64,000 bases of DNA from Hypomesus transpacificus (lineage: Eukaryota > Chordata > Actinopteri > Osmeriformes > Osmeridae). Below the pieces are notes generated by a model. That model searched no databases, was not told the DNA's origin, and was given only the letters and a program-made list of their open reading frames with translations. The stretch's first letter is position 1. Each line of letters starts with the position of its first letter. Location of the stretch: the NCBI RefSeq assembly GCF_021917145.1, contig NC_061074.1, positions 13,125,772 to 13,189,771 of the forward strand. Direction: 5' to 3'. Positions 2,961 through 59,653 of the stretch are shown here, in pieces. The position numbers and the translations under genes were made by a program.

Positions 2961-2976
2961 CATTATCGGCAGGAAG

Positions 2977-5439: not shown

Positions 5440-5782
5440 ATCTCTTTGCTATAATCCAGTATAACGCATTCAAACGCTATGTTACAAGATAAAAGGATCC
5501 TTTAGTCTTCCTGTAACCTAAAGACTCATCCCATGGCAACAACACAACTGCAAGAAAAAAGTGCTCAAGTCCATCCTCTACTGAGCCCAGAGACAATTTC
5601 CTTCTGAGATCTGCTCTGTTCAATTATATTTATAGGACACTGACACATCTTTCAAAGCAAAGGGAGGCAAGGATGTCTTATAATCACCAAGGGGTTTCTT
5701 TCATATTGCTAACAGTGAATGCCCATTACTGGGCTGAACCACAAACTATGCCTGTCTGAAAGACAATTCAACAGTGTGATTT

Positions 5783-5796
5783 GGGGGGGGGGGGGG
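5783..5796. repeat. G homopolymer, 14 bp (short allele of the duplicated tract)
   Basis: A run of 14 G on the plus strand in the 5' flank of the second receptor copy. The matching site in the next tandem copy (7636-7657) has 22 G, so the tract has changed length since the duplication. Confidence 0.9.
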
Positions 5797-6356
5797 AATT
5801 GTCACCTAGGGTTAGCCTCTAGTGTAGCTCTATTTGATCATATCCAAAAGGTGGACAATGGAGGTGTTTGATAAAATTCGAAGTCAAGTGTGATCAAATT
5901 AGTGGGCTGCTATCTGTCTCATTAGAACATGATTCACAACATAATACTACTGACTGGCCTCACATTTGTGAACCTCCTTACTATATGTTTCCACAATGTT
6001 TGCAAGTACCATGATCATCATGAAAACAGAAACTGAAGGGAGTCTATTATGATTCAGAAATGCAAGACATTCATATTTTATGTTTATCCAAATGCAGGCA
6101 AATAAATGCAAATCATATGCAATGTCTAGTAGTAGTTTAGTAGTTTCTTTATATTAATAACAAAGTACAGATCATAAAAGCAGAATTGTCTGTTAAAACG
6201 TGACATTAAATCACAAATGTTTGTTGTTTGCAATGTTATAGCCTACACTTTTGAGGATGCCACTGCCCCAGCCAGAATACAGTGCATGTAAACATGTTCA
6301 GTGTGTCTTCTCAATAACTGAGAAAATATGATGTGAATATGTGCAAATGGCTTCTA

Positions 6357-7295
6357 TCATACAAATAAAGGTATTCTTCTGAACCCACAAAATATAATCT
6401 CTTTCAGTGCATGGTAAAACGTTTCATCCCTCAGGCCATAAACCAGTGGACTGAGACACCTTGGGGCCAGAATAAAAGCAATGTAATTAAAGTACCTGAC
6501 ATCAATATACAATCTCAAATCTATCTGTATTATAGCAGTCTCAACAAAGGGGCACCATAACTGTATCAGACAGAGGATCAGCTGTACACCATGTAGGATC
6601 ACAGTTCTGAGACCTTTGGAGGTGGATGTCTTATTCTCTACCGACGCTTCTTTGGCAACAGACATGATTTTAACATAAATGAACACAATTGTGACAGACA
6701 TGACTAGGAAGTAGAACTGGCTGATGGCAGACGTGAGGTGACTCTGCCATGGATGGATCACAAGCATCTCCACAGAACACGACTTGAATTGCACATAGAA
6801 GGCAAGAGGAACAGAGGCAAAGAACATAGAATCTGTTATGATGGCCTGTATGGAGCTGAGGCTGTGGATGATAAAGATACAGTGTATAGCTCTGCGAGGA
6901 GTAGAAAGCTCTCCATGTCACAGGGGCATGCAGATAGCCACGTAGCGCTCCAGACTCATGGCTGTCAGGGTTAGAGGAGTGACAAAGGTCAACAGAAGTA
7001 ATACAGTACAAATTATTAGACACAACCAAGCTGGCATAGTGATTCTGAAATAGATCAGGTTCAGAAGGATGTCAGTCAGAATCAGGTACAGACTGTCAGC
7101 CAGCAGTGTATGAGCAAATAAGATATAGCGTGCATTTGTGTAAAATATTTCTCTTCTGAAGAAAGTTAAGATGAGCAGGAAATTGATAGACAGGAATATT
7201 CCAATTAGCACCTGCACTACCATGACATTCACATTGATTGCTTTCTGTAAGGATGTGCTAGCATTGCTTGCAGCAGTTGTGTTGTTTTCAATCAT
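6357..7295 (-). pseudogene. Odorant receptor 131-2-like pseudogene, single premature stop
   Basis: The reading frame is colinear with the 312-residue copy at 4501-5439 and needs no frameshift. Codon 126 is TGA (plus-strand TCA at 6918-6920) where the sister copy has CGA arginine in the MPLRYG motif just after TM3. This one CpG transition truncates the protein after the third membrane segment. The rest of the frame, including TM6 HGVQLILC and the C-terminal VYGLRDETFYHAL, is intact, so inactivation must be very recent. Unlike its open sister, it retains the ERY arginine. The aligned start is Met at 7295; the frame stays open to an upstream ATG at 7319, which is not shared by the sister. A sequencing error or segregating polymorphism at 6919 is possible. 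Confidence 0.9.
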
Positions 7296-7635
7296 ATCTC
7301 TTGTTGCTAAAATACACAATAATGCATTAAAACACTATGTTGAAAGATAAAGGGATCCTTTAGCTTCCCTGTAACCTAAAGACTCATCCCATAGCAACAA
7401 CACAACTGCAAAAAATAAGCGCTAAAGTCAATTCTCTAATAAGCCTAGTGACAATTTCCTTCTGAGATCTGCTCTGCTCAATGATATTTATAGGACACTG
7501 ACACATCTTTCAAAGTGAGGCAAGGATGTCTTATAATCACCAAGGGGTTTCTCTCGTATTTCTAACAGTGAATGCCCATTACTGGGCTGAACCACAAACT
7601 ATGCTTGTCTGAAAGACAATTCAACAGTGTGATTT

Positions 7636-9412: not shown

Positions 9413-9443
<31 letters not shown>

Positions 9444-9468
9444 ACACACTCACACACACATACACACT
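9409..9468. repeat. C homopolymer (21 bp) followed by a (CA)n microsatellite
   Basis: A run of C at 9409-9429 passes directly into CA repeats to about 9468. A shorter C run lies at about 9355-9368. Open frames crossing this tract are low-complexity artefacts. Confidence 0.85.
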
Positions 9469-9638
9469 ATTATTGGCAGTGGCACTGACATTTACATAAC
9501 CTGACCTCTAGTGCAAGACTGACGTTTCATGTGCGTAATGGATGTCTTTCTGGACTCAGATGCCAGTGGGCAGTTTTACAGGGACAGTAAATGGATCAAT
9601 ATGTTTGTGTACCGTTGTAGGAGGCTATTAAGGCAGCC

Positions 9639-9991: not shown

Positions 9992-11798
9992 ATGGCTACT
10001 CTCAAGAGGGCAGTCGTATGTGTCAATTTGTTCAGGTAAATACCGTTTCTTTGTGTGCTTTTGAGTGTATTGACAGTTTCAAGTCAATTTACAGAATTGT
10101 TTAACAACATCTAAACATATCTTCCGGTCTGACTTCAATTTCTGTCACTGTTTAGGAACACAGCCAGCGTTCTTAGCAGTAGAAAACCTTCGCGGCATGG
10201 ATTGGTTCGACTCACAGATGTCACCCGCACGAGTATGGTGTCCCTGAGCGTTGGGAGTGGACTGTGCGCAGTTCCCTTCACGCAGGTAGGACTTTCTTCA
10301 ATGAATCTTAAGAGAAATGACCGGAGTAAATAGCCTAAACAGCTAATGTCGTTGTATACCCATACTACCCCATGTTCATCAAACACCACCCACACCAAAC
10401 CTCATGTTCTATTATCTTTCTCTCCAGCAGGTTGAAAACCTGTCTAATGAATCTCTTGTCCGGAAAGCGTCTTTGGTGGTTTTTGACAGTGCGAACACCT
10501 ACCTTTCCCAGACCACTCTGGCCCTTGTTGACTCCTTAACACAATATGCTAAAGTAAGCCACTTTGACGAATCGCATCACTCGGAGACTATCAAGCTTAT
10601 GGCATCATTTCATCTACACACTATTTATAATTTTTTTCTGATGGACTGTTTGTTCCGTTTTTATTGTCTTTACAGGCTCTACATACACTTATTGCCCTTC
10701 AGAAACGGTACTTGGCCTCTTTGGGAAAACTGAATGCAGGACAGGAGGATTCAATTTGGCAAGTTATCATTGGCCAGCGTGGGGAGGTATGTGTACTTTT
10801 GTTAAAGACATTGACTGAAATTGTGGCAAAGCAAATGTCATTTTCAAGACATTCTCCTAAACTGCCATCTCAAGTCATTTGTGGTGTACTGTAATTAAGT
10901 GTTTCAGTCATGTAATAGAACCGGAAAGTGAAAAATAAGCATTATTGACCACTCTTCTAGTCCTAAATAAACATTTACTAAGTTGTGATGGATCTCTCTG
11001 GCAGGTTTCTGACAGACTAGAAGAATGCAACCGTTTCGAGTCGAACTGGATGAATGCCGTCAACCTGTGTAAAATGGCTGCAGAGGCAGCATACAGCACA
11101 GGTGTGTATACATTTTAAACAAGCTGTCAGGTTGCTTCCATTATACCACCTGAGCCACAATATCTAACTAGTATTCAGACGTGATACCCAGTCTGGTTGT
11201 GTGGAGTCTTATTCCTACTTGTTTCCCACGGGAAGCAGTCTTCTGTCAGTGCTGTGTCCCTAACACAGACGTTAACTTGTCATTGAAGCAATAAGCTGAA
11301 ATGCCTCATTAGAAAGACCCACACCTGACATGTTTGTTGTCATCTTCTCACTGCTTTGTAGTTTACTTAGTATGCTGCTCCGTCTTTGTAGGGCTGTCAG
11401 AGCATTGTGTGGATCAGTAGGTGTTAGCCCTAAAGATGTCTCCATTTCCCATTTGATGGATGAGAGAGATGATGGACAGGAGTATCTGTCTGTAGGCTTT
11501 TCTCTTCATGGATGTAGATTGTGTCAACTCTCACCCCTGTCCTTGGGACGGTGCAGTAAGACTAGAGGAGTTATTGTGCTTATCTTCATCACCAGGAGCT
11601 GAACATGCGTCCATCACGGCTAAGACCAACCTGCAGATAGCACAGTCCCAGGTGGAGGACATACGGAAGCTGTCGCAGCACGCTGAAAAGAAGCTGGCTG
11701 AGACCAAGGCCGATGAGATCCAGAGGATGGCAGAGTATGCTTCCTACTTGGAAAGGGGATATGAAGAGGTGCCAGAGGCTTACCTGAGAGAGGACTGA
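9992..11798 (+). CDS. diablo: DIABLO/Smac, mitochondrial pro-apoptotic IAP antagonist (6 exons)
   Basis: Coding exons are 9992-10035, 10156-10285, 10431-10553, 10676-10786, 11005-11101 and 11596-11798, all with GT-AG borders and a continuous frame. They encode 235 residues (human DIABLO: 239). Residues 1-52 form a basic, Ser/Arg-rich mitochondrial presequence. Cleavage after Cys52 would expose AVPF (53-56), the motif that binds BIR domains of inhibitor-of-apoptosis proteins and frees caspases after release from the intermembrane space. The rest is helical: LSQTTLALVDSL in exon 3, WQVIIGQRGE in exon 4, MAAEAAYSTG across exons 5-6, and a C-terminus EEVPEAYLRED that matches the family closely. 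The start ATG has A at -3 and G at +4. Teleosts may have two diablo paralogues; I cannot say which this is. Confidence 0.95.
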
Positions 11799-24700: not shown

Positions 24701-27700
24701 GCAGTGCAACATGTAGCCTATGTAACATAACTCTGTGCTATAAATGCTTCTTAAACTGTCCTGCGAAAACACAGACCTTATGATTCATGTAATAAGGAAA
24801 ACAAATGCATGAATCATACACATGGTAAAACACTCACTAAATGTTTTTGTCAGAGGAGAATTGCCTTCCCCCTGTCTCTGTGTGTGTGTGTGGTTGTGTG
24901 TGTGTTCACTAAAATTACAGGGGAGGCAGGGAGAGCCTATATACCCTTCTAGCCAAGATAACATAGCTGTGGCTTACCACTCAAATTCAAGCCAAGGGCC
25001 CAAAATACCACTCATTTGGCTACTTTTACAAACACATCCTAGGTAGGCTAAATAAAAATGTGTGTCTTCCAAATTTGTAAAAAAATAAAGTTTTAGGCCC
25101 ATCATGCCTTATGAATGTACTAAACAATTAAAACATATATTTGGCTAGTAACAATATTTGGGATATTTTTTAACAAGGATCTCTCCTAACAGTTCCATCT
25201 TGACCAAGGCATGTAAAGTTCATAGGAGCCTCTTGTTAAAGTTTTTAATGTCTATGTGGGCATCAATGACTCATTTGTGTTATTATGTTTGGACAAAAAA
25301 GCCTCAGTCTTGATAGGAATATATTTCACAAGACTGCAAGTGAAACCTGCAATTTAAGATTTATTTCAGTTTCACATTTGCCTCCTGAAGTTCCAGTGAG
25401 TTACTTATTCATATACAGCTGAGTGGGCTCTTTCTAGGCAACTGTTAAACTTCGGTTTCAAAAAGTTTGTCTAGTTAAAAACAAATCATAGTGGCTGTGA
25501 GTTAGTAGAAGGCCCAAAGATAATTTTAAGTCATTTGAATGGGCTCAGAGCATTTTATCATGCATATGACTGAGGGAGAGTTACAGTATTACTAGCCTAA
25601 GCATCTGGGTCAGGCTCATTATGCTAAACCTCACCTCCAGTGGCTCTGTGCTTCCTAACAGCATCTTACTGGCCATCAACATGAACACAAAGTTGTAGTT
25701 ACTCTGAAAATGAATCAAGCATGTTCACGTGAACCTGCAGTGGCTATATATTTTGATTAAAGGTTTATTTTATTTTACAGAGAAACCCCCTATCTCTCAT
25801 CAAATTACTTTTATGTTTAATCTTGTTCCAGAAAAGTTTGGTTGTTGTTGCTTTATATGGCAAGATGCTGAGCCAGTTAGCTGCAGGGCCAGTCTGGGCA
25901 CCCTGTGGAGAGCAGAAAAGGCTGAGTGTGTGCTGCTCATTAGGGAGGAGATGGAGGAACGCTCTCTGACAAGGGTCCCAGACAGAGACGAATCTGTCTG
26001 CTAACCCCAGACCTGGAGGAGGTCCCACCGCCGGGTGGAAAGCAGGTCCGGGGTTCATGTGGTCCCCCTTCCTCAGCCATGTGGACACAGGGACATTCTA
26101 ACGCCAGGGGGAAATAGAGCTTCCAGGTTAATCTTGTGTCTGGAACTAGGCTGCACTCTGTAGATGATGACATTAAAGAGTCAGTATTTTCTGACTTTGA
26201 AATGGATCAGGAAGGAATTACCAGGATCTGGAATGACTAAACCAGCCTCCAGGACAGCCACACACCTTGTAGCTTGTTTCCCTTTATGAGGTCAAACACA
26301 TTCCCTTACAGAGCAAAGAGAAAGCTGTGGGTTGTGTATTGTGGGTGTGTAAACCCTCCCACCTTCTCACACCTCTTTCATCCTCCTATCCTGTATCACC
26401 TCTCCCCATCCTCACTTCCCTTCCTTTCTCTAGACTGTATGTAGATGTTGCCATTCAACATCATGTTTTGGTTTGTGTGGAAAGGGTTTCAATGCAATTT
26501 TAAATTCAGTGGGCAGAGTCTGTTAGCACCTAAGTTTCAGTTCCCACCTTTCTGCTAATCCCTGAGGGGGATGGTGTTGTCTTTTAGTCCTGGTTCATGT
26601 TGTCAGAATGTCATGTTTGTGATCTCCTACCAGCAGCATGGACCTTCCTTGTGATTGTCTATCTGACTGCCTCTCCTCTCCTTCCCTGTGCAGGTGTGAG
26701 CAGTAACCAGGTGGTGGTCCCTGAAAAGGTGAGTGCGGTACTGGGGAAGAACATCACCCTGGGCTGCCGGATAGAGGTGGGCTCCAACCTCAGCCTGACC
26801 CAGAGCTCCTGGGAGCGCCGCCTGCCCTCTGGCACCATCACCCTGGCGGTGTTTAACCCCGAGTTCGGCATCTCCATCTCTCCAGAGTACGCCCGCCGCG
26901 TCTCCTTCCTGTCCCCCTCCATCCAGGACGCCACGATTGTCCTGGAGGGGGTGGGCTTCGCAGACGTCGGCTCGTACACCTGTAAAGTGGCCACCTTCCC
27001 TCTGGGCAACACACAAGCATCAACCACCGTCAACATATTAGGTATGTAGGACAGTCTGACTAGTCCACTGTCGTCTCTGTGTTATATGGTGCCTGTAAGT
27101 CTCCCCCTTACATGGCTGGTTGTGATGAGGTGCTTCTCGGGTCAACAGTAGGTAAGTGTTTGACCCGGAAGGATCAGTTACTCTCTGAAGGACCTCACCC
27201 TAGTGGCCCAATGGCTCTAAATCACCACCTGGATGGCAGCCATTCACATTGAGATCCCAGCTTCCAGTCACAGGGCACAGCTGTGCTGCCCTTTCTGTGC
27301 TGCGAGTGTGCCCGGGCTCACCTCTCTCTCATTCCCAACCCAGCCTCAGGAACCCCTTGATAAATATTCAAACATCTAATTTACTAAGTGCTCATTGACA
27401 TTTCGGTATTCATTTGAACTGAAGCGGCAAACACGTGTTGACATTATGTACACGATTCCATCCACTTGAGCAGGACCTGTACTGTAGAACGCGAAGTGAA
27501 GAGTTGTACATTTGCCAAGAAAAAGGGTACATTTAACTGCAGATTACCCATAATAAGTGGTGCAGGGGGATTCTAAGAGGGTGAACAGCACTTCCATGTA
27601 ATGGGATCCCCTTTCAGTACTCGTCTTCCTTGTTCAGTCCTGAGCTCTCACAAAAGGCCCAGACTGTTACAGCACCAGTAGTGTGGTGGGGGGGGGGGGG

Positions 27701-30700
27701 GGGGGGGGGGGAACGCCCAGCCTGGAAACAATAAAACTTGAGGTAGAGGAACACTCCTCCGGTACTGAGAAGGAGAATGACCTTTCGTTTCAAATTGCTG
27801 ATAAGATAAGTTGGAACGCTACCCCACGGCTCTGGAGTGTCCTCAGGGAAACTTAAGAATCCATGAAAGTACCCTAATGAAGACATCAGTGGGACTGACA
27901 TTGCGGCAAAGCGTCCTGCTCAGTTTAAGTTATTATATCCTCCAACCATAAACTGCTTTCTCCTCAGCCCCAGACTTGACTGCCCCACTCATAGCCGGTT
28001 TACGGCCCGTGACAAGCACTTGATGTGAGCAATAACGGCATCTCCCTCCTGTATTCAGCAGAATCCTGAAATGGAAGAGAACATCAGAACAGCAGTATAA
28101 CAAAGACCTACCTACTTGGCTTGTTGAGCATGACATTTTATGGATGTTTTATTGATTGAAGCTGTTAGATAATGCAAACCCATATTTCTCAGAGTTCTAC
28201 ATGTCCTGAATACTGAAAGCAATAATTATTATTATTAGTGGTCATATCTGTATTGTTAATGTGAGCAACTGACAGGCTGTAGTCTGTGTTTCTGCAGCAT
28301 GGCCTGCAAACATTCAGTTGGTGTTTAAATCGGCAAGGTTCCATCTGTCCAGCCAGCCAGTCTGGCTGTGTCAGTGCTCAGCTGAGCAGAGCAGAGCAGA
28401 TCATACAGTAGGTGGATCACAGACAGGCCCGACAGGGAATTGTTATCTTCTCTCCATTCATCCAGACAGATCCCACCCTCTCCCCCGCCCTGAAATGAGC
28501 ACCCTGCGTAGAGGTGGTTACCGTTGGGGGTGTAAGGAGAGAGGGGTGGTTACCAGGCAGCCGCCTAACACAACAGGGCCATGGTGGACGGTTGGAGTCC
28601 ACCATGGGGGGGGGGTTGAGGGAGGGGTCGGGAATGGCTGGAAAAGTCTGTGGAGGGGGCTGTAGAGAGGCTGTGGTCTGAGGGGTGGGGAGCGTGTGCC
28701 GGGCTGCAGAAGGTATTGGAGCTATTTTTGGAAGCGGAGGTCTCGGGGGGGTTACTAAGAGGTTGTCGTTCCACCGAGGCCCCCACGGGTGGGGAGGGGG
28801 GCGGCAGATGTCTGGGGGTGGTGGCCTCGTCTTTCAGATTAGGGGTATGCATGTGCCCCACATGCTGTGACCATCACTGTGACAGGAAGTGGAGCAGCTG
28901 GTAATGCCCACCACAGAGAGGGAGAGAGAGAGAGAGAGAGACAGGAGGAGATGGGGGAGGAGAGATGGAGTCTCTACCGTGGAGGAGGGAGAGGAGAGAC
29001 TGGGAAAGACCTGAGAGTAGGAGATGGGGGAGGGTTAGATAGAGCACCAGAGACACTGGGGATGAGAAATGGACCTGGGAAAGAGAGCAGGGCAGGGGGA
29101 AACCCAGAGAGGAGAGGTAGCGATGGAAAATCAAGATCGCTCCCTCCCTGGATCATGAATGTAAGCCTTGTTGCCAAGTTGCTTTCCATCCTCATCTACA
29201 TAAAAGCCCTTTCTTCCCCTCTGTGTCCCACCTGATCTGAACGGGTGGACATCCTGCCTGTGTGCTCATGACTAATGAAACAGTTTCCGTCTGGGTTTAC
29301 GTCACCGTAGCAGAACACTGACCCTCCTGCTTCATTGTCTGCTAGGGCAAGTAGAGGACTCTATTACCCCAGTCACCTCCCTCACATAGATCTGTTTTAC
29401 ATCCCTATTGAGGAAATCTGTGTCACGTCTCAAGCCCCAGTTATTCACAGGAAGCCAATGTAACATAAACCTGGCTCCGAAGTACTGAACGACATACAGC
29501 AACCCTACTCCACTGTTGGGATCTCCTTGAAATCAAACACAGAAACACAACTGCACTGAGTGTTGCAACTGACACCGGACTAATAACAGGTCCACAGATC
29601 ATTAGCTCTAACTTTCCAGAGAACCATTACTAGTGAGACATTTGAAATGTAGGTCAAACTCACGTTACCTAACACACGCTGTAAGGGTTGAGCAGAAAGA
29701 GAGCAGAACTGAAACCTTTTATGGAATGTTTCATGGAAATGCTTTGTAAGTATTCGAAAACTGGGACGGTCGATATAGCACAATATCAACCTCTCACAAA
29801 CACACAAACATATTTACGTCTCCGGTACAACAGTGGAGAGCTTGTTTACCTCGAGAAGTGCTCCTCTTATCAAATTGCTCAGCTCATCAATTTATTTTAT
29901 AGATATCTGTGAAATGCAAGACATCAATCCTGTCTGCATCTCTGTGTGCTGTGGCCACTTCCTGCTGCCCATATCCCTTGTTTTATGATGCCCATTATTT
30001 ATTAATCTTCATATATAAAAAAAGATCAATATTCATTTTGTAATTTATTTTCCGTCTGTCTCCCCTCCCCCCCCCTCCCTCCCCTCCCTCCCGTCTCCTT
30101 CCTCCCCCCCCCTCCCTCCTCCTCTCCTCCCTCCCTCCCTTGTCCTTTCCCCCCTCTCTCCCCCTCCCCTCCCTAGTGGAGCCCAAGGTGTACGTGTCAG
30201 CCGGCTCTGCCCCCCTGCTGGACGGGGGGAACCACACGGTGGTGGCCACCTGCATCGCGGAGCGCGGCCGCCCCGCCGCCGAGGTCCTCTGGGAAACGGG
30301 GCTGCACGGCAGCCTGGAGACGCGCTCCCAGGACGAGCCCAACGGCACCACCACCACCCAGGTGGGCTACATCTGGAGGCCCAGCAGTGCGGACCAGGGC
30401 CAGACCCTCACCTGCGTGGTGCGCCACCCGGCCCTGCAGACAGATTTCCGCATCCCCTACACGCTCAACGTGCAGTGTAAGTGTGCAGGGACCAGGCAAC
30501 CAGGGGTTAGCTTGCTGGGAACTTGGGCTTAAGAGCTTAGTAAGCACCAGAGTGGAGCCTAGAGTCCAAGTCATTCAAAGTTCTGCAGTTTTTCTTTTTG
30601 CGTACTGTACAGCACTTGATGTCAATCACCGGTCTGTCAAAGACAGCTGGCGTGTTTTTCTGTCTGGGTGCTCTCCTTTCCGATTCCAGTTACCGTGTTT

Positions 30701-33297
30701 ATCAGAAGCTGGCAATTACTGACCTTTAACTTGCGTTAATGGGTTAGAGTATGAGTACACAGAGACCACCATGCTACCTGACTCTCTTCTTTCACCCATA
30801 AAAGGACCATTAAGAGATTCATCTTAATGTTACAGTCGTTGATGCCTGCTTCCTTGGCAAGCTGGGCTGTTGGCTAGTATCTCATTTAGACTGCATGAGA
30901 GCAGGCTAATGAAGCCATTTTATGAAATATTGATCAGGCCCCCAGCATCATCAGCAGCAGTGGAGGAGGGGGGTCGTGGTTAATACAGGAAATAAGCAGC
31001 TTCAAGGCTCAATACATCGTGTCTAATGCAGAGACGGGGGATTTCTAAGTTGCGAAAGAATCACAATTTCGACACTGACCTGTGTGCTGAGGTCAAGGGA
31101 CACAGTCACGCGCTCCCCCCGTAATCATGTGCTTCCAGCTCCTAAGGGAAATCAAACAGGGGAATATTGGAGACAGGAGTCATTGTTTGTTTACAACATG
31201 TACAGCGGCTTTGCTTCTGTTGGGATGAAATTGTGTTATCTCTGACTGGTATTGGACCAGAGAGTGTGTTCGAGCCTTCCTCCCCCAGCAATGTGATGCA
31301 TCTCCCTCCCCCCCCCCCCCCCCCCCCCCCCCCCCCATGCCTCGCCATTTTAGTTGTCTTGCCTTTATTTCGGCAACAGTACCTGTGCGCTCCCAGAGTA
31401 ATTTGTGGCTCTCTTTTTCATTTCTAGTATCACTTTTCTGCTTATATTGCTTGCTTTGTTCCCTCTGGAAACCCCCATTTGTCATGTTGCAGATTGTTAG
31501 GGGTCACTTCGTGTAACGCACATGCTCACTGCTCCGTCCATTTGAAATTAATTGAAATTAGTTGAAGTGAATTTGAAGTAGATGCTGTTCTGGCAGTTAT
31601 TGCATAAGATCATAGCTTAACAGATTTATTAAATAGAACAAGGTAACCTTTTGCTTTCATATTTTAACTGTTGACCTGGCTGTGTGTGTGTGTGTGTGTG
31701 GTGTGTGTGTGTGTGTGTGTTGTCATGTGTCTGTGCTGCAGTCGCTCCAGAGGTGTCTGTGGAGGGGAGGGACAGGAGCTGGTTCGTGGGCCAGGCTGAC
31801 GTGACGCTGGACTGCTCTGCCAGAGCTAACCCTCCAGCCCACCACTTCTCCTGGACTAGGTGAGTCTCCTCAAGTCTGCACCGAGCTCGACCTCTGCAGC
31901 CCATGGACACGTTCAGCCCAACTGCCTGCTTCTTGGCTCACAAAGCCACGTGTTTCTCCCCCCCTCCTCCAGGATGGATGCCCCCATGCCTGACGGTGTG
32001 GCTGTGGCAAACAGCACCTTCAGCTTCACCCGTCCCCTGGAGAGGAATGACTCCGGCGTGTACCGCTGCGAGGTGATGAACGACATCGGGCTCGGGAGTC
32101 AAGACGTTCACTTCTGGGTACAGGGTGAGCTGCCTGCCCCTCATCACTCATCTGCCTCCATCACCAGCTTTAGTTTTGGAACTTTGTGGTGTAGTTTTAG
32201 GGTACAGTAGCTATCTATTTCTTCATACGAGCTGACAGCGCCCAGTTCGACTTGCTCCACATTTCCAGAAACAAGAGGAGCACAGAAACAGACAGTGTCA
32301 ATAACAAAGGACACTGTTGTGGTTTTGGCTGCGGCACATTTATTTTGCTAGGTGGATTGTTTTTCAGTTTTTTACTGGGAGCACAGCGTGCTACAATGGG
32401 ACCCTTTTAGTTTCGTTTTTTTATTCAAGGTCGGGCGTCTGGGTTGGAAACAATGAATTACATTTAAAACACAATAATCACAGACAAATGTGTTTCACAT
32501 AACAAACGCATATCTGACCCTAATGTATTCATCTCGACTCAGAAGAGGTACTTATAAAGATTAGAATTGATCACTCGTGTTTAGAATTGAGACAAGCTAA
32601 ATAGAGGGAAACCTTCCTCTGAGGTCTGTTACCAGGTTTTTGCTACAGTTGGCCTGAGGCCTGCTGCACAGTACCTGATGGGGCCCACGCCCTCCCTCTT
32701 TCTCTCGCTCTCGCTCTCTCTCTCTTTCTCGCTCTCTCGTGTCTAAACATCTTTGGCCGCCCTATTCTTCTGTAGCTAGAAGTGAAGCATGAGAACTCGT
32801 TCTCTTTTCCTTCCCCTCTTTCTTTTAATCCACATCCAAACATAATGACTGCTGTTTTTGGACCCAGCTTTCCCCCGGCGCACTATTTCTCTCCTCGCTC
32901 CCTGAGAGGAGAAGTCTGGAGCGGGCCCAGCGCTGCCTGTCATGCTCCATCTGTGCTGAGGCCAAGTTTTGGAGGAGGCCCCTCTAAAAACTACACCATG
33001 GTTGACATCCTGTCCAGGAAGGACAATTATCGGGCTTCTATCAGGCCAGCACGAGGAGGCGGGCATATGCTGCCTCTCAGCCGCGCCCCCTGTGGAGATG
33101 TTCAGGAGCCGAGGCTACGCGAGCCAGCATGGGTGCACCGTCCACCCCCGTCCACCCCCCTCATGTGGATGCTTGACATGCCCAGTGGTCTCTTTGCCCT
33201 TGTGGACCTTCCTCCTGACCAGCTGTAGCAGCTCAGCTTAGCCCCCTTGTGTGGTGTCCTTCTGCCCCTCCCTAGCAAGACACCAGGGTTGGGTTCA

Positions 33298-33349
<52 letters not shown>

Positions 33350-34855
33350 GAGGGTTGATGGGTGACAGGACAGTGTTTTTTATCTCTTCACTGACCTTGA
33401 GCTGCCCCCTCCTCGCTTTACATTATCTCCATCCCCAGGGCCACTGGCATGCAGGTTAGTTGGATTCTCTCTCAGGTAAATCACAGGAAGTCATTAGAAG
33501 CTGTACTGGGACTGGGCTGTGTTTAATCAGTTGTATTGTCAACCCTCATGTCCACTGGAGGCCTCCAAGCCTGTGCTGTTGCAGGTCATATTGCTTTGTA
33601 GTTAGGCTCTTTGATGTCTGTCTCCAGAGACTCTTGTGTCAGACTGTTTTCTTAGTCCCGAAAGGCTGGGCTACAATAGGGAGACAATGCTTCTGACCTT
33701 TGGCTGTGTGGAGATGGAACAATGCTGCTGACCTTGGGCTGTATAGAGCTGGAGGATGCTATTGCTGACATCACTGCTGGTCAATGCTGATGGACCAGTC
33801 AGATTCATCTCCTCACATGACCTCCAGTGGCTTTGGAAGAGAGAGAAGGGACGAACTAAGCAAATGCACGCTCTCACTCTGCCCCTCTCGCTCGCTCTCT
33901 CTCTCATACTCACTCTCTCTCACTCTCACACACGCAATAGCTAAATTGCTTCCGACGTTTAACCTATACTTTGTTCAGTCTCACTTATAAAGGCTCTTCA
34001 ACAGAGCAACCTCTTAAATTCTTTATTTTTTTCTAGAGATGCTATGATGTTCTGCCTCACTTGGACTGGTTGAGATTTGTAGACAGGGTTTGGTAGGGAG
34101 GTTTCTGAGGTAGGATTGTACTATTTAATAAAATGTGATTTATTTTTTATGGCTTGTAATAATTTTTCCTCTTGACTCTCCTCCCTCCCTTCTCCACACC
34201 CCCAGACCCTCCGCCAACGACAGCCGCCCCCCTCACCTCGGCCTCCACCGTCATGGAGACCCGTGAAACCAGCACGGCCCCCGACAGGCACAGCTCCCTC
34301 TTCACCTCGCCCACGCTGGCGTCCCTGCCCGACAGCAGCCTGGGCACAATAGTGGGCGGAGCGGTGGGCGGGGTCCTCTTCCTGGTGCTGCTGCTGATTC
34401 TGGGCGGAGCCTGCTTCATGCGCCAGAGGAGGACCTTCAGAGGGGACTACTACACCAAGCAGTACCTGGGCCCGTCCGACATGCAGAAGGAGTCCCAGCT
34501 GGACGTGCTCCAGCCCCACGAGCTGCAGGAGGTGTCCGGGGACGGCTCGGGCAAGGGCAGTCAGGACCTGAAACCCAAGCCCGGGGGAGAACTCATTTAC
34601 CCCGACTACACCGACGACCGCAAGGACACGGAGGACTGGGGCAACGGGCCAAGAGCCCTCAGGGAGGGGGGGTACTATCCTGAGTATCACAACAACACCA
34701 ACAACATGCACCACGGTGGGCTTCCTGTTCACAGCCCCCCGGTATCCAACGGCTCCCCCTACATCCCGGAGGACTGCTATGACAACGGCACAGACGGCGA
34801 CTATGTGTCCCATATGGACGGATCTGTGATCTCTCGCAGGGAGTGGTACGTCTGA
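15704..34855 (+). CDS. nectin3: Nectin-3, Ig-superfamily adherens-junction adhesion molecule (6 exons)
   Basis: Coding exons are 15704-15794, 26694-27041, 30177-30476, 31742-31859, 31973-32124 and 34206-34855. All junctions are GT-AG, with phases 1,1,1,2,1, giving 552 residues (human nectin-3: 549). Exon 1 encodes a signal peptide. Exon 2 is the V-type Ig domain (Cys in TLGCRIEV, Cys in SYTCKV) that mediates trans-adhesion. Exon 3 is a C-type Ig domain, and exons 4-5 make a split third Ig domain. Exon 6 holds a Thr/Ser-rich stalk, a membrane helix (about 384-408) and a 145-residue tail. The tail begins [20 protein letters not shown] and continues with [11 protein letters not shown], distinctive of nectin-3 rather than nectin-1, -2 or -4. 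It ends [10 protein letters not shown], the afadin PDZ ligand. The neighbour downstream is a CD96-like gene, as in mammals. Teleosts may carry 3a and 3b copies; which one is not determined. Confidence 0.94.
19686..19870. repeat. Purine-rich (GAGAGG-type) imperfect tandem repeat
   Basis: About three degenerate repeats of roughly 55-60 bp built from GAGA, GAAAGGGA and AGAGACAGAGAGGG blocks, with almost all purines on the plus strand. The 154-residue open frame on the minus strand here is a low-complexity Ser/Leu/Pro artefact. Confidence 0.7.
22380..22410. repeat. (GT)n microsatellite
   Basis: Uninterrupted or once-interrupted GT repeats of about 30 bp in nectin3 intron 1. Confidence 0.85.
24120..24143. 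repeat. G homopolymer, 24 bp, followed by a short (GT)n
   Basis: A pure 24-G run on the plus strand, followed by TTGGTCG and (GT)6-7, in nectin3 intron 1. Confidence 0.9.
27688..27711. repeat. G homopolymer, 24 bp
   Basis: A pure G run on the plus strand in nectin3 intron 2. Confidence 0.9.
30056..30176 (+). promoter_or_regulatory. nectin3: 120-bp polypyrimidine tract before nectin3 exon 3
   Basis: From about 30056 to the splice acceptor CTAG at 30173-30176 the plus strand is almost entirely C and T. It includes several runs of seven or eight C and repeated CCCTCCCT blocks. It must serve as the pyrimidine tract for exon 3 splicing and is many times the usual length. Such mirror-like homopyrimidine DNA can form triplex structures. 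Confidence 0.75.
31308..31336. repeat. C homopolymer, 29 bp
   Basis: A pure C run on the plus strand in nectin3 intron 3. Proline- or glycine-rich frames that cross it are artefacts. Confidence 0.9.
31681..31720. repeat. (GT)n microsatellite, once interrupted
   Basis: About 40 bp of GT repeats, starting some 60 bp upstream of nectin3 exon 4. Confidence 0.85.
32125..34205 (+). other. nectin3: nectin3 intron 5
   Basis: No exon was recognised. A 148-residue open frame at 32782-33228 has no Ig or other domain and is not needed for the model. The intron includes a (CT)n-like stretch at about 32700-32745 and a 48-G run at 33301-33348. A second CT-rich stretch lies at about 33885-33920. Confidence 0.65.
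33301..33348. repeat. G homopolymer, 48 bp
   Basis: The longest homopolymer in the window: 48 consecutive G on the plus strand, in nectin3 intron 5. Confidence 0.92.
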
Positions 34856-49850: not shown

Positions 49851-52800
49851 ATGGAAGGCTCAGGGCTGTTCATCTTGGGCTTTGTCCTATATGTTACTCA
49901 CTGCTTGGAAATGCTGGGTAAGTGTGCAGTTACAATCCATCTGTGACTGAGCAATGTTTATGTGTTTAGTTTATTACCCCTTAAAGATGTGTTTAACCTG
50001 TTACATTTATACTGAGCAGGGCCTCAACAGCTTCCCTGGCTTGTTAGTCTAATTGTGACTTGCTTTACAAGCAATAAAACAATCACATTACATGACATTT
50101 TTAGTGCATCTTGACTCGTCAAGAGACATCAACTTTGTATGAACATGAACATCCTCGATGGACCTTTTACTGACATGTTTTAAAGTGCATTGTCCAGTAG
50201 TGTCATCATGTAAACAATTTTTTTTTGTTTTATGACCATTTATAAACTGCCTTTTAGGATCCCATTAAGTTTTTTGCAATGACTCCACTGAGTACTGTTG
50301 TGTATTTCACAGAGGGAAAAACCCTGTTTTGTTGTTTTCTGAGAGAGATCCCTCGTTGTTCTGTGTTTGATCTGGAAAGAGGAACCCATGCAGATGTATC
50401 TACCCACTGAAGATGACAGTTAGACGATGCTTTGCAGCAGAAAACCCATTACTCATTCTTTCAGTTATCTAACTCTGAAGTCCTCTCTGGTTAGCAGAGT
50501 CACTGTGGAGTGCACGATCCACATAGCTGTAAGTCCCCTTGGACTGAAGCCAGAAGATGAGGCATGCAGTGAAATCAGACTGTCTTGTGAGAGACTATTT
50601 AATCAGCGTGTACAGTGTGCTGCCCCTGTATGGTAGTTAAACTAAGACATTTACAGAAATAGTTTAACTGTATGTCATTGGTGAGTTGTTGCTTTGTGTG
50701 AGACAGTGCCTTAGAGGCACATTAAATCTGTAGAGCCAAATGATTGTATGATTTCAGACGGTTGCTTGGTGATTACTTGCCATGTATCCTGTAAGTGTGC
50801 TCCAGCAACGCTTGGATGACTTTCATTTTGAGCTATTATTTGCAAGGGCAGATCCATTTGTATGGCTAATAAACTCACAAAACATGATATACGATTTACT
50901 GCTGGATATGTCCAACCCCTCCCACTGTGCTTAGGCTCTCTTGTGGTTTGGGAAATATTCATCATTTTTTCCATGTGTGGTGATGCTGTTGTCTTCATTG
51001 GCTACAAAAAAAGTTTGAATGAACAATTGTCCACTGCTGCACCTAATAAAGGCCATAAGGGTGCTAAGATGTCATAATTTACCACTTAATGTAGTTCAGA
51101 CACAGTGATGATGTTTACATTTGGTTCAATTTGCTGATCTGATAAACTGTGCCCTTAAACACATCTTAATCAAGAAAACAAAGACTGATGCGAGTGAGTT
51201 GGTATGCACTGTCCTCCTCCACGCTTTAAAAACCGTCAGGATTTATTCAATGTCCTTTCCTGTGAAACCTCCCCTGGCCGTGCTTGAGAGTCTAAGACAG
51301 CTGTAAGACAGAAGGTTAGAGGGTGTGTCTGGGCAAGCATGAGTGTTGCTTTCTGGACTGTTTTCATTTCATTAACATAATGGAATTCTCTATTAATTCA
51401 CCACTGGTGGGACAAGGCCACATTTGTCAAGTGTCACATTGTGTTTCAAGTTCATCCCCTGTCTTTAGACTGAGATTAAGACACAGTCCACCCCCTTTTG
51501 AAAACGTCTACATCATAACTCCTGTATATCAGATTACAACAATCCTTATCTGTCCCGCATCTCTAAAACTGTTAAAGATAACACAATTATGTACTTCAAC
51601 CAACAGGAGGAAGTCAATCAAAGTATTGATAGAGGAACACTCAGGCTCGCATACACTAGCTGGAAGTGGCTCATATATCACAGCTCAGCTCCACACTCCA
51701 CACACATACACACATATGCACACACATAGACGATGAGATGGACAGATAACCCAGTTTTACGTATGTCACACCAACACACACAGTCTTCACCACCCTTCCT
51801 CTTGCCGATAACGATAGCTATGTTGTCGTCGTCAAGTGAAATATGCTGTTTTGCTACTATTAGTGGTTTCAGCAGCATGCCAGAAATGACTGAACTCTTT
51901 ATATGAACATTACTGTGTTTTGTGTAACACGATCCACTCAACCAAGTTGTGTTTTGCTTTTTGTTCTGCCTCAGGAGCAACAAAGCCAGACATTGAGATG
52001 ACTCATAATGTAACCGGAGTCCTGGGAGAGGACGTGTACCTGCACTGTCGATACTTGGGGCAGAATAACATCATCTATGCCCTGTGGAAACGCCAGATTG
52101 ACTCCAAGCTGAAGCGGCTGACAGGTTATCTTAACAAGAACAAGGCCTTCACCAAAGACCCCGACTTCTCTGCCCCTGCATCGGCCACCAACCTGACTGT
52201 AAGGATGAGCGTGTCCAGCCTCGAAGCTGAGGGAGAGTACATCTGTGTGTTTGCTTCTGACGAAGAGGAGTTCACCGACACCATGATCCTCAATGTCTTA
52301 GGTAAGACTGGAGCAGGAAATTATAGCAACTGGGCAGAACAATGATAGGATAATTGAGGGAAACCCCATGCTGACCCCATGTGTTCCATGTTCCCATTTC
52401 TAAGCTCGGCCAGACATCCAAACATCAGTGACTGAAGAGACAGCCAACGGCACCCACTACCAGTCTGTCACCTGCTCTGCTGTCAACGGTAAACCCAGGC
52501 CTGAGGTCAGGTGGATGATCCGGGGGGCTCCTGTGGAGATGACAAACACCAGCCACACCAATGGCACTGTCACAGTGAGCAGTGTGCTCCGCTTCCCCAC
52601 TCACCTGCAGGACCAGGACAGGGTGACATGTGAGGTCCAACACCCTACCCTGCCAGAACCGGCCCTCGTCACTGTGAACGTGGAGACCTTCGGTATGAGA
52701 GTTCCGAGATTGATTCAATTTATCGGATTATCCAGCCGTGCAGGAACAGCTTTCTGAATGATCACTGTCTTTTGGTAGTATGCAAATACGTAAATACCTG

Positions 52801-55800
52801 GTCTAAGCTTAGTTTATAGACTAAATTAGGATCTCTTTGTTCACATGTTGAATTCTAACTGACATCGTTTTGTGGAAAATTACGCTCCTTTCATTTGCAG
52901 TGGCTCCAAATGTGACCATAGAGGCAGACTTGGTGATGGAGGAGGGTGTGGATATCTGGAAGATCACATGTAGGGTGTACGGTGGAAGACCCAAGGCTGG
53001 CATCTCCCTGGCATTGCCCATCCACCAGGAGGATGAGCGTGGACTGTGGAGGGAGGGGGGCAACATTTCCGATACCCAGGCCAGCTCATACCACCTCCCA
53101 GCAAAGCTGTACGAGGGACAGAATATAACCTGTGTGTTTGACCACCCAATGTTCAACCACAGGGAGCTACGGACTGTTACTCTGCCAGCTTTCTGTAAGA
53201 ATCATTACCTTCAGCACTGTTATCTTCAGCACTGTTATCTTCAGCACTGTTATCTTCAGCACTTTTACCTTTAGCACTGTTATCTTCAGCACTGTTATCT
53301 TTAGCACTTTTACCTTCAGCACTGTTATCTTCAGCACTTTTACCTTCAGCACTGTTATCTTCAGCACTGTTATCTTTAGCATGGTTACCTGCAGCACTGT
53401 CATCTTCAGCATTGTTACATTCAGCACTGTAACTTTCAGCTTTTACAATATACTATACTGTAAAAGCAATGCTATTCTAAAAGACAAACACAAGCTCTCG
53501 GATCTGACATATTTCTCCCTGCCACTGTGGTCAGATTTGTCAGCTGTGCAGTTGGTTAACTCAGAGTCTACAGGAAATGGCAACAAAAACCAGGCCATGA
53601 AAGCAGTGATGTTAAAGGAGGGGCATGGTAACAGCACCATCACCCTTCAGGTCATCGGAGATGTTCCACGTTACACTGTCATGTGCATCAAGTAAGATTT
53701 TAACACATATAATTGTTTCTAACAATTGTTATGAACAATTAAGGAACAATTGCTTGACTTTAAATGTGCATTAACAAATGATTCAGGTCAGAAACTCAAC
53801 TCAAAGAGTTTAAAACAAAGTCTTAAACTCCACTACAACTACTTTAACTGTTACTATTCATTTGAGTACAGAGTGGTTAACTTAACCTATTTATCACGTT
53901 GGCTGTGGTGAGAGGTTAACATGAAAACCACACTACAGACGTTTTTTTCTCTCATTCAGATAGAAGTATTAGTCATACAGAAACTTAATGGAGCCAATGG
54001 ACTACTTGAGATCAACCAAATGAACTGCTGTTTGTCCAACACAGAAGATTGTTACAATGTGTGTCCATATCTTCCCCCTCCAGAGATGACGGGCCCTTAC
54101 CAGAGGGTATGGAGGTAACTGGCAGTGTCCTCAGGGTTCAGGGCCCAGTAGAGCTGACCCATGCAGGCCTGTACGAGTGTGAGGCCTCCTACCAACACCT
54201 AAAAGCCTCTGTGAAACTGAACGTCACTGTCAGCGCACATGATAAGCAACCTGGTAGGAAGTTCTGAGTTCTAGCACAGACGGTTTAAACATATCCATAA
54301 ACACCGCATGGTTCTTTTCAGCATGCATGCATTATTCACCTTATAGCACGGCTCGAAATTAACAGCGTCCCGGGGACTATGAAAAAGTTGTCTGGGACAG
54401 TTTGGGACGACTGCGGGACGATAGACGAATATAAAAATGCATACACCAGTGGTTCAACACGTTTAAACACAAAGGCGGGTGAAACATATCACAGTTTCGC
54501 TTAAAATGCCATAAACTATGAATAATGTATTCACATTACAAGCGCTGCTATGTGTTCTGCGCTGCTCCACGGTGCGCTGCCGCACTTCGTCAGGCAGTGG
54601 CCGTCCATCATGCATAAACTAGCTAGCTACCAGCTAACAACAATTCCAAACCGCTAGCAAAAGTTAGTTTTTGGACCTCGGTATTTTTTAAACCCTGCAT
54701 ACGCCCATAACCACAGCCACTGACTGCCGACATGAAAAGACCAGTAGACCATCATGTCAATTCAAACATCACGTTAATGACAAATACCGAGCTAGCTAGC
54801 TAACCAAATGGGGAACCATTATCGACCGGTTACACTCAGAAATTTCACGAAAATGTGGATGTAGACCCAAGACAAAAAAAAAAACGTTGTCACAACATCG
54901 TACTTTAATATTTAGATACACACCTATATTAAAACATTCCGGCCTTAAAATACAATAGTGATATGTATTTTTCTCAGACATTCTCTCACAATTCAGACAT
55001 TGATTTGAGCCCCACGACTATGGAAACTGTGAGTGGATGGAATATTGATGTTGGTCTTCTCTCTGTCTCAGTGCTTGTTACTCCCAGAATAAGGATTGAT
55101 ACACAGGAAAGACTTGAAGACAGACTCATTGAGTGCCTGGCTGCCAAGGCCGTCCCTGCCGCCAACCTGTCCTGGCTTCTTCCTGAGGGTGTGTCCGGGC
55201 TCCACTGGTCCAATTTCACATCCCATAATGGAACACACTCAGTCAGGGCTGTGTTAGTCTTGCCTGTCTGCCTACAACAGGAGCTCAGTGTGGAGTGCAT
55301 GATAGATCATCCAGCCTTCGAGAAGCCTAAAAGCAGACGCATAACACTCCCTGTGTGTGGTACGTTCAACAAACCCAACACAAAGACAATCCTGTCTGAG
55401 TAATGGTCCTATAAATATTGTATTATTCATTCCACTGGCTACCCTCTGATCTGCTTCCATACAGCCCCTCCAAACATCACTATAGAGTCCAGTTCAGAAT
55501 GGGTGGACGGCACAGCATACCAACTAGTGCAGTGCAGTGTGGACAGTCCTCACCCTGTGGCCAAAGTGTCTTGGAGTGTCGGGAGCAGTGACAGTGAGAC
55601 CAGGGCCCTGCATGGGGTCCAGATCCTGCCTGAGGTGCATGCTAGTGGTCGTGTGTCTGTCCAGAGTAGGGTGAGATTCCCTACCACCATGTTCTCTGGT
55701 CAGAATGTAACTTGTGCGGTGGAGCATGCTAGTCTGGAGAGAACTGAGAGGAGACACATACTGGTGCCGGAGCTGGGTAAGGAGGGCTAATCCATGCGAC

Positions 55801-55990
55801 TGTTCTGTCAGGTCTCTCTGTGTTTCAGTGTGCTCTCTGCCTAAAAAATGACATGCTTAACTCTATCTGTCTCTTTCTGTCTCTTTCTGTCTCTCTTCCT
55901 CTGTCTCTCTCTCTCTCTCTCTCTGCCTCTCCCTCTCCCTCTCCCTCTCCCTCTCCCTCTCCCTCTCCCTCTCTCTCTCTCTTTCTCTCT

Positions 55991-56064
<74 letters not shown>

Positions 56065-56101
56065 CTCTCTCTCTCCCTCTCTCTCCCTCTCTCTCTCTCC
56101 C

Positions 56102-56186
<85 letters not shown>

Positions 56187-59100
56187 CCCCCCAGAAGGCC
56201 CAGTGATGAGTGTGTCTGTGAGAAAGCAGACACACTCCTCTCTCTGGCTAGCAGAATGTGAGTACAGGGGGGAGGGTGTTGGGGTACACCTCTCCTGGGT
56301 CCTAGCAGAGAACACCACATGCCAAACCTCTTCCTCCCTCCACTCGTACTATGAGGGCCTACAACTGCACACAAGACTGACCTATGAGTTCCCGTTGGCT
56401 CTGTGTGAGGGACAGGACCTAACCTGTCTCATTCAAAATGAACATGGGCTGAAAGCGAGAAGGACAGCACATGTTCCCATATATGGTAAATTCAATGGGT
56501 TGGTCTCAGAACTGGACTATTCATAAATTTTGCCATAGAGGCACTTATAAGAGATTCAAACATGCCCATTTACTTTGTTCTGTGTCTAAAGATTTGTTTT
56601 TGTTGATATTTTTTGTTGATGACTTTTTTCTTCATACAGACATCTCATTTATCAGAGTACTGAATCAGACCACTCCACTTAACAGACCTCACAGAAGGGA
56701 TCTCATCATACACAGACTAGCTTTGCAGGAGAATATCCACGGCCAGAGAGTCCTGTTCAGAGTCATTGGCAGTGTGCCCACCTACAACCTCACCTGTCAT
56801 AGGTAATCCACTCTCTCCGCTCTGAGATTACCCTTGCAAACATGACACAGAGGGCTGTTCAACACTGAAGTGCTTTGGGCCTCTTTGATCCCTGAAGAGT
56901 GTGTAGGTTTAACTTTGAATAAAGCACAAGGCAGAGACACATTTGATAATATTATTAACACTGTTGTAATTACTGTGGTCATTATTATGAGAACATTGTT
57001 CTGGACCAGACTGAAGCTTTCTCTTTTTATTGCTTTATGAGAGCTTTTAGCAAGATCATGAAATAAGCGTGTGACCATAAAGCTGTCTTTATGCATAATT
57101 AAGATATCATCAGGCCTGGTGTTGCTGCTGGGGGGGGGGGAGGGTTTCTGACTGGCAGGGACGAGGTGGCACTAAAGCAGCCTTTCATCAGAGAGACAGA
57201 GTGACTCATAAAGCGCTAGATCTTGAGAGGTCCTGACGCTCTCACATCCTCCCCACAGCCTCTCATAAATCATCTGCAACACTGGTTATGAAACACAATC
57301 TCCTCATTCATAGACAGATTTAGTTATCCTGTGAAATGATGATTGCTGCTACACGTTAAGTATTATTCTCTTGAAATGACAGACTGATGGGAATTGCCTC
57401 CAGCTCACTCAACGGGCGAACAAGCCAAACTAACTTGTATGATGTGTCCTGTGTTTGGCAGGAGTGATGGCTCAGTGGCCCTGGTGGAGGGCTCAGCCCT
57501 GGTGTTTCCTTCTGCGGTGACAGAGAGGGAAACAGGCCTGTACACCTGCCAGGCCTCCTTCTACCACCACAAGGCCACGACACTCATTCAGCTGGAGGTC
57601 AACAGTGAAGACCATGAGCTTAGTGAGTGTTTTTATTCGATAGTAGATCTCCTGTATGAAGACAGACAACCACAGTATTGTTGTGCCTTTTTTCTAATTG
57701 TTGTGCTTTATCAAATCTGTTGACTTTGTCTCTTGTTGCAGTGTACCTTGTCATTGTTTGCTTCTCTACGGCCATGGCGGTCACACTTCTCGTCATCGTC
57801 ACTCTCTGTGTGTTCTGGTGAGTCTAAAATCTCTGCAGGAGACAGGTAATAGCTAGGATTGTGACGTGCTGGCAGGTAATGTGGCAGAAAGATGCAGACT
57901 GTCTGCCAACAGAGGAGAGAGACAAACAGGAAGTAATGGTGGTTCAGTCTGACGGTTCTTCTGCCGCAGAACCAGGAAGTGAAGGACTCTTTTCTCTCAC
58001 CTTCATGACCAAAGTAGCTCTCTACTATTCACAAACAGGAAGTGTGGCAAGAACAGACAGGTGCCTGTGCCACCACAGCGCTGCTGGCAAGCGACCAACG
58101 GTTTTGTTGACTGTGGTGTCGGCAATTGATTTATTTTCCATCCATAAATGGTAAAAGTTTAGAGAGTAAAACCATGAGAGTTAAACAATGTAAAACTGCC
58201 ATCACCGACACTATGTGTGCATTTATGCTTTGTAAGAAGCACACTGTGAAATAAACCTTTCAAGAAAGTTCACATCTGGTGCACCGCTATACTCATCAAA
58301 CATAGGCTAACATTTTCAAATGACAAAATGCAGACACTGCAAATTTGTCTTGTTGTGATTGGAAGTGAATGTAAAGCCAAGTGTCTCATAGCAACCATGT
58401 TTTCATGACTGCTGTCATCCCAGACTGCTCCTCAGTGGTATCTCAAAGTTTTTCCACATTTCTGCAAGCATCCCATAATACCCATAACCTCCCCCATGTA
58501 TGTCAGCTCTCTTGTATGGGTAGATGGTAACAACACAGACTCGGTTTACTTCAGTATAGGTGCAGAGGCTGTTTACATAGGAGGCCTGTCTCTCTGGTCA
58601 GTGCAGCACACTTGGTCAAGGTGCCATTGGTCCAGCGAGTCCCTCTGTCCCATTATTGCTTGATCCTGTGGGAGGGTCTTGTCAGGTTAATTTGGGAAGG
58701 TCAGTCAGACAGCATACACAGAGAAAACAGGACTCCCCGAGAGGATATCTATTTTGGGGAGTGTGTCACCCGGGCAGCACTAGGAACACTTTTTGACAGG
58801 TCTTCACTGGCGTGGTAGGTGTCATGGGGGGGGGGGGGGGGGGGGGGGGGGTCATGATGAATGGGGTGAGGTTTTGTTTCTGACATGAGAGAGATCAATG
58901 ATGATGTTTGGGGTCAGTACAGCTCTCCATTGATATTCCCCTCGCAATATGCATTTGTCTCAGAATAGAGATTTAGTCATACAACACTGCCCCCATCAGG
59001 TAGATTGAGGCACTAAATGTACTTGAGTGTGATAATTCAAATTTTCAGCACCCTATTTATTATATTTCACTGCTAACTTTTTTGTGTTGCAGCAAAAGCA

Positions 59101-59429
59101 GTGAAGTACACCAGCCATCACCAAAGGTACGTATCATTTTAATATGCTCGGTGTCACATCTTAGAATTGTTACTTTACATACCCTTGTTCATCGATTGAT
59201 AACTTCAATGGATTAAACAAATCTCAACATCTCTCCTTCGGTCTTCCCTTTCTCTCTGAATCTGGTGGCCCTTCTGTAGAAGCGTGAGTCTCTGGCCGCC
59301 CTGACTAGCCTGATGCAGGGTCCCTGCTCTCCTGACCTGAGGAAGCCTGCCGTGGGCTCAGAGGAAGGCCAGGAATATGTCCAATTTTTTAGCTATAATA
59401 TCATCCTTGATGTTAAGTCAACTGTCTAA
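49851..59429 (+). CDS. CD96-like / nectin-receptor-like multi-Ig type I membrane protein (14 exons)
   Basis: Coding exons are 49851-49917, 51975-52301, 52405-52692, 52901-53194, 53535-53691, 54084-54253, 55072-55359, 55465-55776, 56195-56485, 56640-56802, 57462-57622, 57742-57817, 59093-59126 and 59280-59429. All have GT-AG borders and the sum is 925 codons plus stop. Exon 1 is a signal peptide. Exon 2 is a V-type Ig domain (LHC...LWKR...GEYICVF). Exons 3 and 4 are C-type domains; exons 5+6 form a split domain. Exons 7, 8 and 9 are C-type domains; exons 10+11 form another split domain. A membrane helix lies at about 840-864, with a 61-residue tail. Phases match those of nectin-3. Position next to nectin3 matches mammalian CD96, a T/NK-cell receptor for nectin-family ligands, but human CD96 has three Ig domains and a different tail. 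The tail has YVQF and YNII and ends in STV. Gene reality is well supported; CD96 orthology is inference at about 50%. Confidence 0.85.
49918..51974 (+). other. CD96-like gene intron 1
   Basis: I found no exon-like frame with Ig similarity. The sequence is AT-rich; short CA repeats lie at about 51692-51730. Confidence 0.6.
53207..53440. repeat. 15-bp minisatellite (TTCAGCACTGTTATC), about 15 copies
   Basis: A tandem array of a 15-bp unit with C/T and A/G variants begins 12 bp after the exon 4 splice donor (53195) of the CD96-like gene and lies wholly in its intron. Because 15 is a multiple of three, all frames stay open across it. This produces the FSTVI-type repeat frame on the plus strand and an LKITV-type frame on the minus strand; neither is real coding. 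Confidence 0.9.
54350..54815. mobile_element. Possible decayed hAT-type transposon fragment
   Basis: The stretch begins near GGCTCGAAATTAACAG, a sequence I recognise as like the terminal region of fish hAT-type elements. It continues with GGGACG-rich repeats and differs in composition from the flanking intron. It lies in the CD96-like intron between exons 6 and 7. I cannot find the other end or a target-site duplication. Confidence 0.4.
55859..56194 (+). repeat. (CT)n microsatellite forming the pyrimidine tract of exon 9
   Basis: About 330 bp of CT and CCCTCT repeats run from about 55859 to 56184, followed by ACCCCCCCAG and exon 9 of the CD96-like gene at 56195. It fills most of the 418-bp intron 8. 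Ser/Leu frames on the plus strand and Arg/Glu frames on the minus strand are artefacts. Confidence 0.93.
56803..57461 (+). other. CD96-like gene intron 10
   Basis: No exon is seen. The intron splits the second two-exon Ig domain and contains a G run at about 57130-57140. Confidence 0.6.
57818..59092 (+). other. CD96-like gene intron 12
   Basis: The intron lies between the membrane-helix exon and the first tail exon. It contains a 26-G run at 58826-58851. A 97-residue open frame at 57861-58154 lacks a domain. An extra tail exon here cannot be excluded. Confidence 0.6.
58826..58851. repeat. G homopolymer, 26 bp
   Basis: A pure G run on the plus strand in intron 12 of the CD96-like gene. Confidence 0.9.
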
Positions 59430-59647
59430 GAAAACTGCCTTGCTCAAAGACCTTTAAGCTGGCCTGGCTGTGTTGTAGTATTACTGCCTTGCTTGCTTTT
59501 TATTCAGAATTGCAATATGCACAGTACATAAAGTTGTGTACCACAATTATATACCAAGCAATATTTTTGGTTTATTAACTTGCATTAAAATGTCTTGTTG
59601 TGTAAAATTACTTTACAATTGTTTTGTTTGTTGGATGAACAACATAA

Positions 59648-59653
59648 AATAAA
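59648..59653 (+). promoter_or_regulatory. Polyadenylation signal of the CD96-like gene
   Basis: AATAAA lies 219 bp after the stop codon, in AT-rich 3' UTR; it is the best-placed signal before the next gene. Confidence 0.6.

Follow-up and report, generated by a model that had tools for sequence, protein, structure and literature searches.

We analysed a 64,000-nucleotide stretch of the Hypomesus transpacificus genome (the window; NC_061074.1, positions 13,125,772 to 13,189,771, forward strand) and focused on one gene at window positions 49851-59429 (+), hereafter the window gene. It looks like a real predicted cell-surface receptor with eight nectin-derived immunoglobulin (Ig) domains, and it is distinct from the gene that we read as the CD96 orthologue of this fish. 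We consider it probable that the product is an eight-domain, nectin-derived type I membrane receptor that does not dock through the standard nectin interface. A preliminary description of the same DNA had proposed 14 exons, about eight Ig units, a V-type start and a short tail, and both splicing and Pfam confirmed this layout. The exons are as follows.

49851-49917 (+): exon 1, start codon and signal peptide MEGSGLFILGFVLYVTHCLEML (splicing; hydrophobic leader by eye)
51975-52301 (+): exon 2, D1, V-type Ig domain without the AX6G lock and the TFP/TYP key (V-set 1.7e-14; V alignment)
52405-52692 (+): exon 3, D2, nectin/PVR C-type domain (splicing, Pfam, sequence matches)
52901-53194 (+): exon 4, D3, C-type domain (splicing, domain comparison)
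53535-53691 (+): exon 5, D4 (first half) of nectin third-domain type, with the B-strand Cys missing and the C-strand Trp changed to Cys
54084-54253 (+): exon 6, second half of D4 (splicing, sequence matches)
55072-55359 (+): exon 7, D5, C-type domain (splicing, domain comparison)
55465-55776 (+): exon 8, D6, C-type domain near D2 and D3 in sequence (domain comparison)
56195-56485 (+): exon 9, D7, divergent C-type domain (splicing, domain comparison)
56640-56802 (+): exon 10, first half of D8, a D4 copy with the identical displaced Cys (domain comparison)
57462-57622 (+): exon 11, second half of D8 (splicing, domain comparison)
57742-57817 (+): exon 12, transmembrane (TM) segment (hydrophobic stretch by eye)
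59093-59126 (+): exon 13, start of the cytoplasmic tail (splicing)
59280-59429 (+): exon 14, remaining tail with EYVQFFSYNII, C-terminal KSTV and stop (splicing, motif scan)

The gene was spliced by hand, and its 13 introns were all GT-AG, with phases chaining unbroken. The coding sequence comprised 2778 nt (925 amino acids and a stop), its only in-frame stop being the terminal codon, and all ten Ig exons (exons 2-11) carried stops in both alternative frames (2-9 per frame, except for one frame with 1). Third-position GC was 0.61, versus 0.42 in the introns. Pfam assigned V-set (1.7e-14) and C2-set_2 (8e-21, in four stretches), along with Ig_3, ig, Ig_2, C1-set and I-set, and these Ig matches are far beyond chance. 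In order, the protein comprises a signal peptide, D1 (V), D2, D3, D4, D5, D6, D7, D8, the TM exon and a tail of 61 amino acids, with 18 N-glycosylation sequons; D2, D3, D5, D6 and D7 are single-exon domains, and D4 and D8 take two exons each. The ectodomain consists of two alike blocks, D1-D4 and D5-D8, as would be expected if the exon model had merged two adjacent receptor genes. That is highly improbable, and the fusion was rejected, since inspection by eye of the 818-bp intron revealed neither a TM exon following D4 nor a signal exon leading into D5, and since the reading phases are continuous across the junction.

The closest sequence relatives were nectins and PVR: D1-D4 matched nectin-1 (8.5e-17) and PVR (2.4e-14), and D5-D8 matched PVR (2e-8). 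D4 and D8 each copy the nectin third domain and, like that of the adjoining nectin-3, each is interrupted by a phase-2 intron at an identical codon. These matches and the third-domain intron bore out the preliminary assignment to the nectin/PVR family, and its fallback reading, a new nectin-derived receptor, is supported. Both D4 and D8 have a cysteine displaced from the B strand to the C strand, where it replaces the C-strand Trp, and the D2/D6 and D4/D8 pairs reveal a duplicated block within the gene. An origin from nectin-family exons beside nectin-3, plus one extra C-type domain ahead of the split third domain, is well supported, as is a later duplication of the block inside the gene to give V-C-C-C2 / C-C-C-C2.

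Docking between nectins and their receptors relies on a key in the FG loop (TFP or L/TYP) that enters a C'C'' lock at AX6G (PMC5966540). We aligned 15 V domains, D1 and 14 others: all 14 others carried both the key tripeptide and the glycine of the lock, and 11 of the 14 the strict lock alanine. D1 has ASDEEE at the key position, and its C'C'' is shortened and lacks the glycine; judging from its sequence, the receptor is probably unable to use the standard nectin interface. Only 1 of 12 inner branches of the V-domain tree was well supported, the longest branches being D1 and the V domain of the contig C366 gene described below; the tree did not resolve, and bears neither for nor against placement in the CD96 group. 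AlphaFold modelling of D1 from a two-row alignment gave a mean predicted local distance difference test score (pLDDT) of 57.

With nectin-1 and nectin-3, its top sequence matches, the window gene shares the succession of V, C and a third domain with the phase-2 intron at the identical codon as in the neighbouring nectin-3; its C-terminal ending may likewise be of PDZ type. It differs from them in its eight Ig domains, where a nectin has exactly three, in a V domain without lock and key, in a short, unrelated tail and in the displaced cysteines of D4 and D8. All nine human nectin-family members are three-domain proteins according to a study of nectin evolution, which alludes to additional nectins in fish but gives no particulars of them (PMC7286890). 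PVR (CD155), with three domains and an immunoreceptor tyrosine-based inhibitory motif (ITIM) (PMC7286890), retains the key TFPQG, which is absent from D1.

CD96 lies beside nectin-3 in mammals. The position and orientation relative to nectin-3 given in the preliminary description hold: the window gene lies 3' of a nectin-3-type gene, both on the (+) strand. The description had also proposed a CD96 orthologue. That proposal was overturned by a separate gene on contig C366 (about 266.9-269.2 kb, +; L032:2893-5221), which encodes one V domain, a 193-amino-acid stalk (46% S/T/P), a TM segment and a tail. This tail contains PPPFKPPPPPMKY (longer tail stretch, PPPFKPPPPPMKYSSV), matching the CD96 tandem RPPPFKPPPPPIK, a proline tandem that overlaps an ITIM (PMC5966540). 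As read from these features, the C366 gene is the CD96 orthologue of H. transpacificus, and the window gene is not CD96, because a separate orthologue, named in advance as refuting, exists. CD96 has three Ig domains (PMC5966540), and the C366 gene, with its single V, also departs from that number; either D2 and D3 of CD96 were gained in tetrapods or they were lost in the H. transpacificus lineage. The CD96 tail motif is probably older than the fish-tetrapod split, because this one-V fish CD96 carries the mammalian motif. T-cell genes have been recorded as CD96 or 'T-cell surface protein tactile' in salmon (PMC7593592, PMC8763012), and a T-cell marker as CD96/tactile in tilapia (PMC8818700).

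The window gene resembles CD96 in its place beside nectin-3, in having the V domain first and in its short tail. It differs in its eight units instead of three, and in the absence of the AX6G lock and (L/T)YP key expected of CD96, of a strict ITIM, of a RPPPFKPPPPPIK-type tandem overlapping an ITIM, and of a stalk: D8 enters the TM exon after NSEDHEL, and the 40 amino acids preceding the TM segment are Ig sequence with 22.5% S/T/P. A teleost CD96 grown to eight Ig domains and binding nectins on lymphocytes would fit the place and orientation by nectin-3 as in mammals, the leading V domain, the short tail and the nectin-family sequence. It is nevertheless very improbable: the C366 gene is the better candidate in this genome and rules the window gene out as sole orthologue, and its stalk and tail motif led us to reject CD96 orthology of the window gene. 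In this fish the neighbour of nectin-3 is instead a lengthened nectin derivative, so synteny alone does not justify the name CD96 for a fish gene found where mammals have CD96.

Contig C366 holds additional partial CD96-like copies at L028 (249801) and L032:1027-1449. The copy at 249.8 kb may be a pseudogene, because its V exon carries an in-frame stop. Downstream of CD96 (L032:8655-8837 and about 9434-9520) we also found fragments encoding parts of a short, IYGN-containing TM protein (Pfam SIT, E 0.015, under the cut-off); they resemble TRAT1, which lies near CD96 in humans.

The cytoplasmic tail of the window gene carries two tyrosines six residues apart, YVQF and YNII within EYVQFFSYNII, and ends in KSTV, versus EWYV in the neighbouring nectin. 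A motif scan of the tail found no strict ITIM and no strict immunoreceptor tyrosine-based switch motif (ITSM). We take KSTV to fit a class I PDZ ligand and the nectin PDZ ligand to belong to another class; the tyrosine spacing of six presumably resembles that of the TIGIT tail, and is a lead only.

Among the other receptors of this group, a CD226-like gene is separate (contig C8, 3404.6 kb, -), in which a V domain carrying FHPDYG and TFPQG precedes another V-type domain. A TIGIT query of the genome identified no TIGIT gene; its two best matches, on C23 (12172 kb) and C12 (7617 kb), were V-type exon pairs with HTYPEG and an extra cysteine, which look like mutual duplicates and which we take to be CD200-like (CD200-type). 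TIGIT and CD226 share with the window gene a nectin-group V domain, and its tail tyrosines are spaced like those of TIGIT, but both have the lock and key that D1 lacks and only one or two V-type domains. The single V with TYPxG and the immunoglobulin tail tyrosine (ITT)/ITIM tail of TIGIT are likewise absent from the window gene. The CD200 family differs in that it is not known to have a third domain or repeats, and CD200-like genes sit on C12. Nectin third domains are not known from TIGIT, CD226 and CD96.

The function of the window receptor we infer from its sequence. Eight domains would form a long, heavily N-glycosylated rod, holding the divergent V domain far from the membrane. With both halves of the lock and key lost, this domain would probably stand outside the usual nectin/CD96/TIGIT binding network; D1 might recognise another partner, or the same partners via another face. 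The tail, through EYVQFFSYNII and KSTV, could signal via phosphotyrosine adaptors or a PDZ protein. Immune-type and adhesion-type use have similar odds. It is possible, and we put it forward tentatively, that the gene represents an undescribed fish receptor class, with an immune or adhesive role, that combines a nectin ectodomain extended to eight domains through internal duplication, no lock and key, third-domain copies whose cysteine has shifted from B strand to C strand, a short signalling tail and a new partner, and that has been retained as a single-copy gene next to nectin-3.

An ordinary long adhesion molecule, that is, a nectin duplicate at epithelial or neural junctions anchored by its C-terminal PDZ ligand, would explain the nectin-type domains and exon structure, and KSTV would fit a class I PDZ ligand; the nectin ligand, however, is of another class, and the remainder of the nectin tail is absent. 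Nectins do bear a C-terminal PDZ ligand (PMC7286890), but their docking needs an interface (PMC5966540) that is missing from D1, and we regard this explanation as unlikely. Somewhat more doubtful still is an old co-paralogue, in which the window gene and CD96 shared an ancestral tandem array, CD96 was relocated, and the window gene stayed as an immune receptor with a TIGIT-like tail. The location beside nectin-3, the nectin-family ectodomain and the tyrosine spacing of six, as in the TIGIT tail, agree with such a history. Against it, D1 has neither lock nor key, the tail has no strict ITIM, and the window gene contains nectin third domains, which TIGIT, CD226 and CD96 are not known to have.

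A main checkpoint network of mammals is made up of nectins and the lymphocyte receptors that bind them; if the loss of the interface is real, the window gene would be an example of a receptor that quit the nectin network yet retained nectin parts. We recognised no description of it in a literature search for fish CD96 and an eight-domain nectin, and fish genome databases may well list it already, named as nectin-like or tactile-like.

The upstream gene used for comparison is a nectin on the same strand, with V, C and split third domains and a tail ending in EWYV; its nectin-3 label, which we assume, relies on likeness to the human tail.

26588-34855 (+): nectin-3-type gene, V at about 26696-27040, C at about 30177-30476
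31742-31859 and 31973-32124 (+): its split third domain, with TM and tail on to 34855

Genome searches, which score only the best candidates, listed no second copy of the window gene in the 437-Mb genome with D1-D2 (E<=10), D5-D8 (E<=1) or D3-D4 (E<=10) as queries; it is single copy as far as searched. A second nectin-3-type tail was found on contig C5 (4511047-4511514, -; 48% identity) and is probably a duplicate from the teleost genome duplication; the copy searches listed no window-gene copy beside it, where 3.5 kb were read.

Within the window gene, a minisatellite at 53205-53430 (15-base unit TTATCTTCAGCACTG, 15.1 copies) starts 10 bases past the end of exon 4, and a long CT repeat at 55861-56184 ends just ahead of the exon 9 acceptor at 56194 and may influence exon 9 splicing. 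Candidate polyadenylation signals follow the gene, by consensus match only.

59584-59653 (+): ATTAAA at 59584 and AATAAA at 59648

For the gene downstream of 60.3 kb Pfam gave no name, its only match being under the cut-off; it might be a dynein-like gene (DNHD1). Upstream of nectin-3, diablo/Smac exons lie at about 10347-11798 (+; Pfam Smac_DIABLO 1.5e-52). Finally, three tandem seven-transmembrane receptor open frames, the third split into two, occupy 1443-7334 (-); the one frame scanned matched Pfam 7tm_1 (2e-14), and we take them to be olfactory-type.
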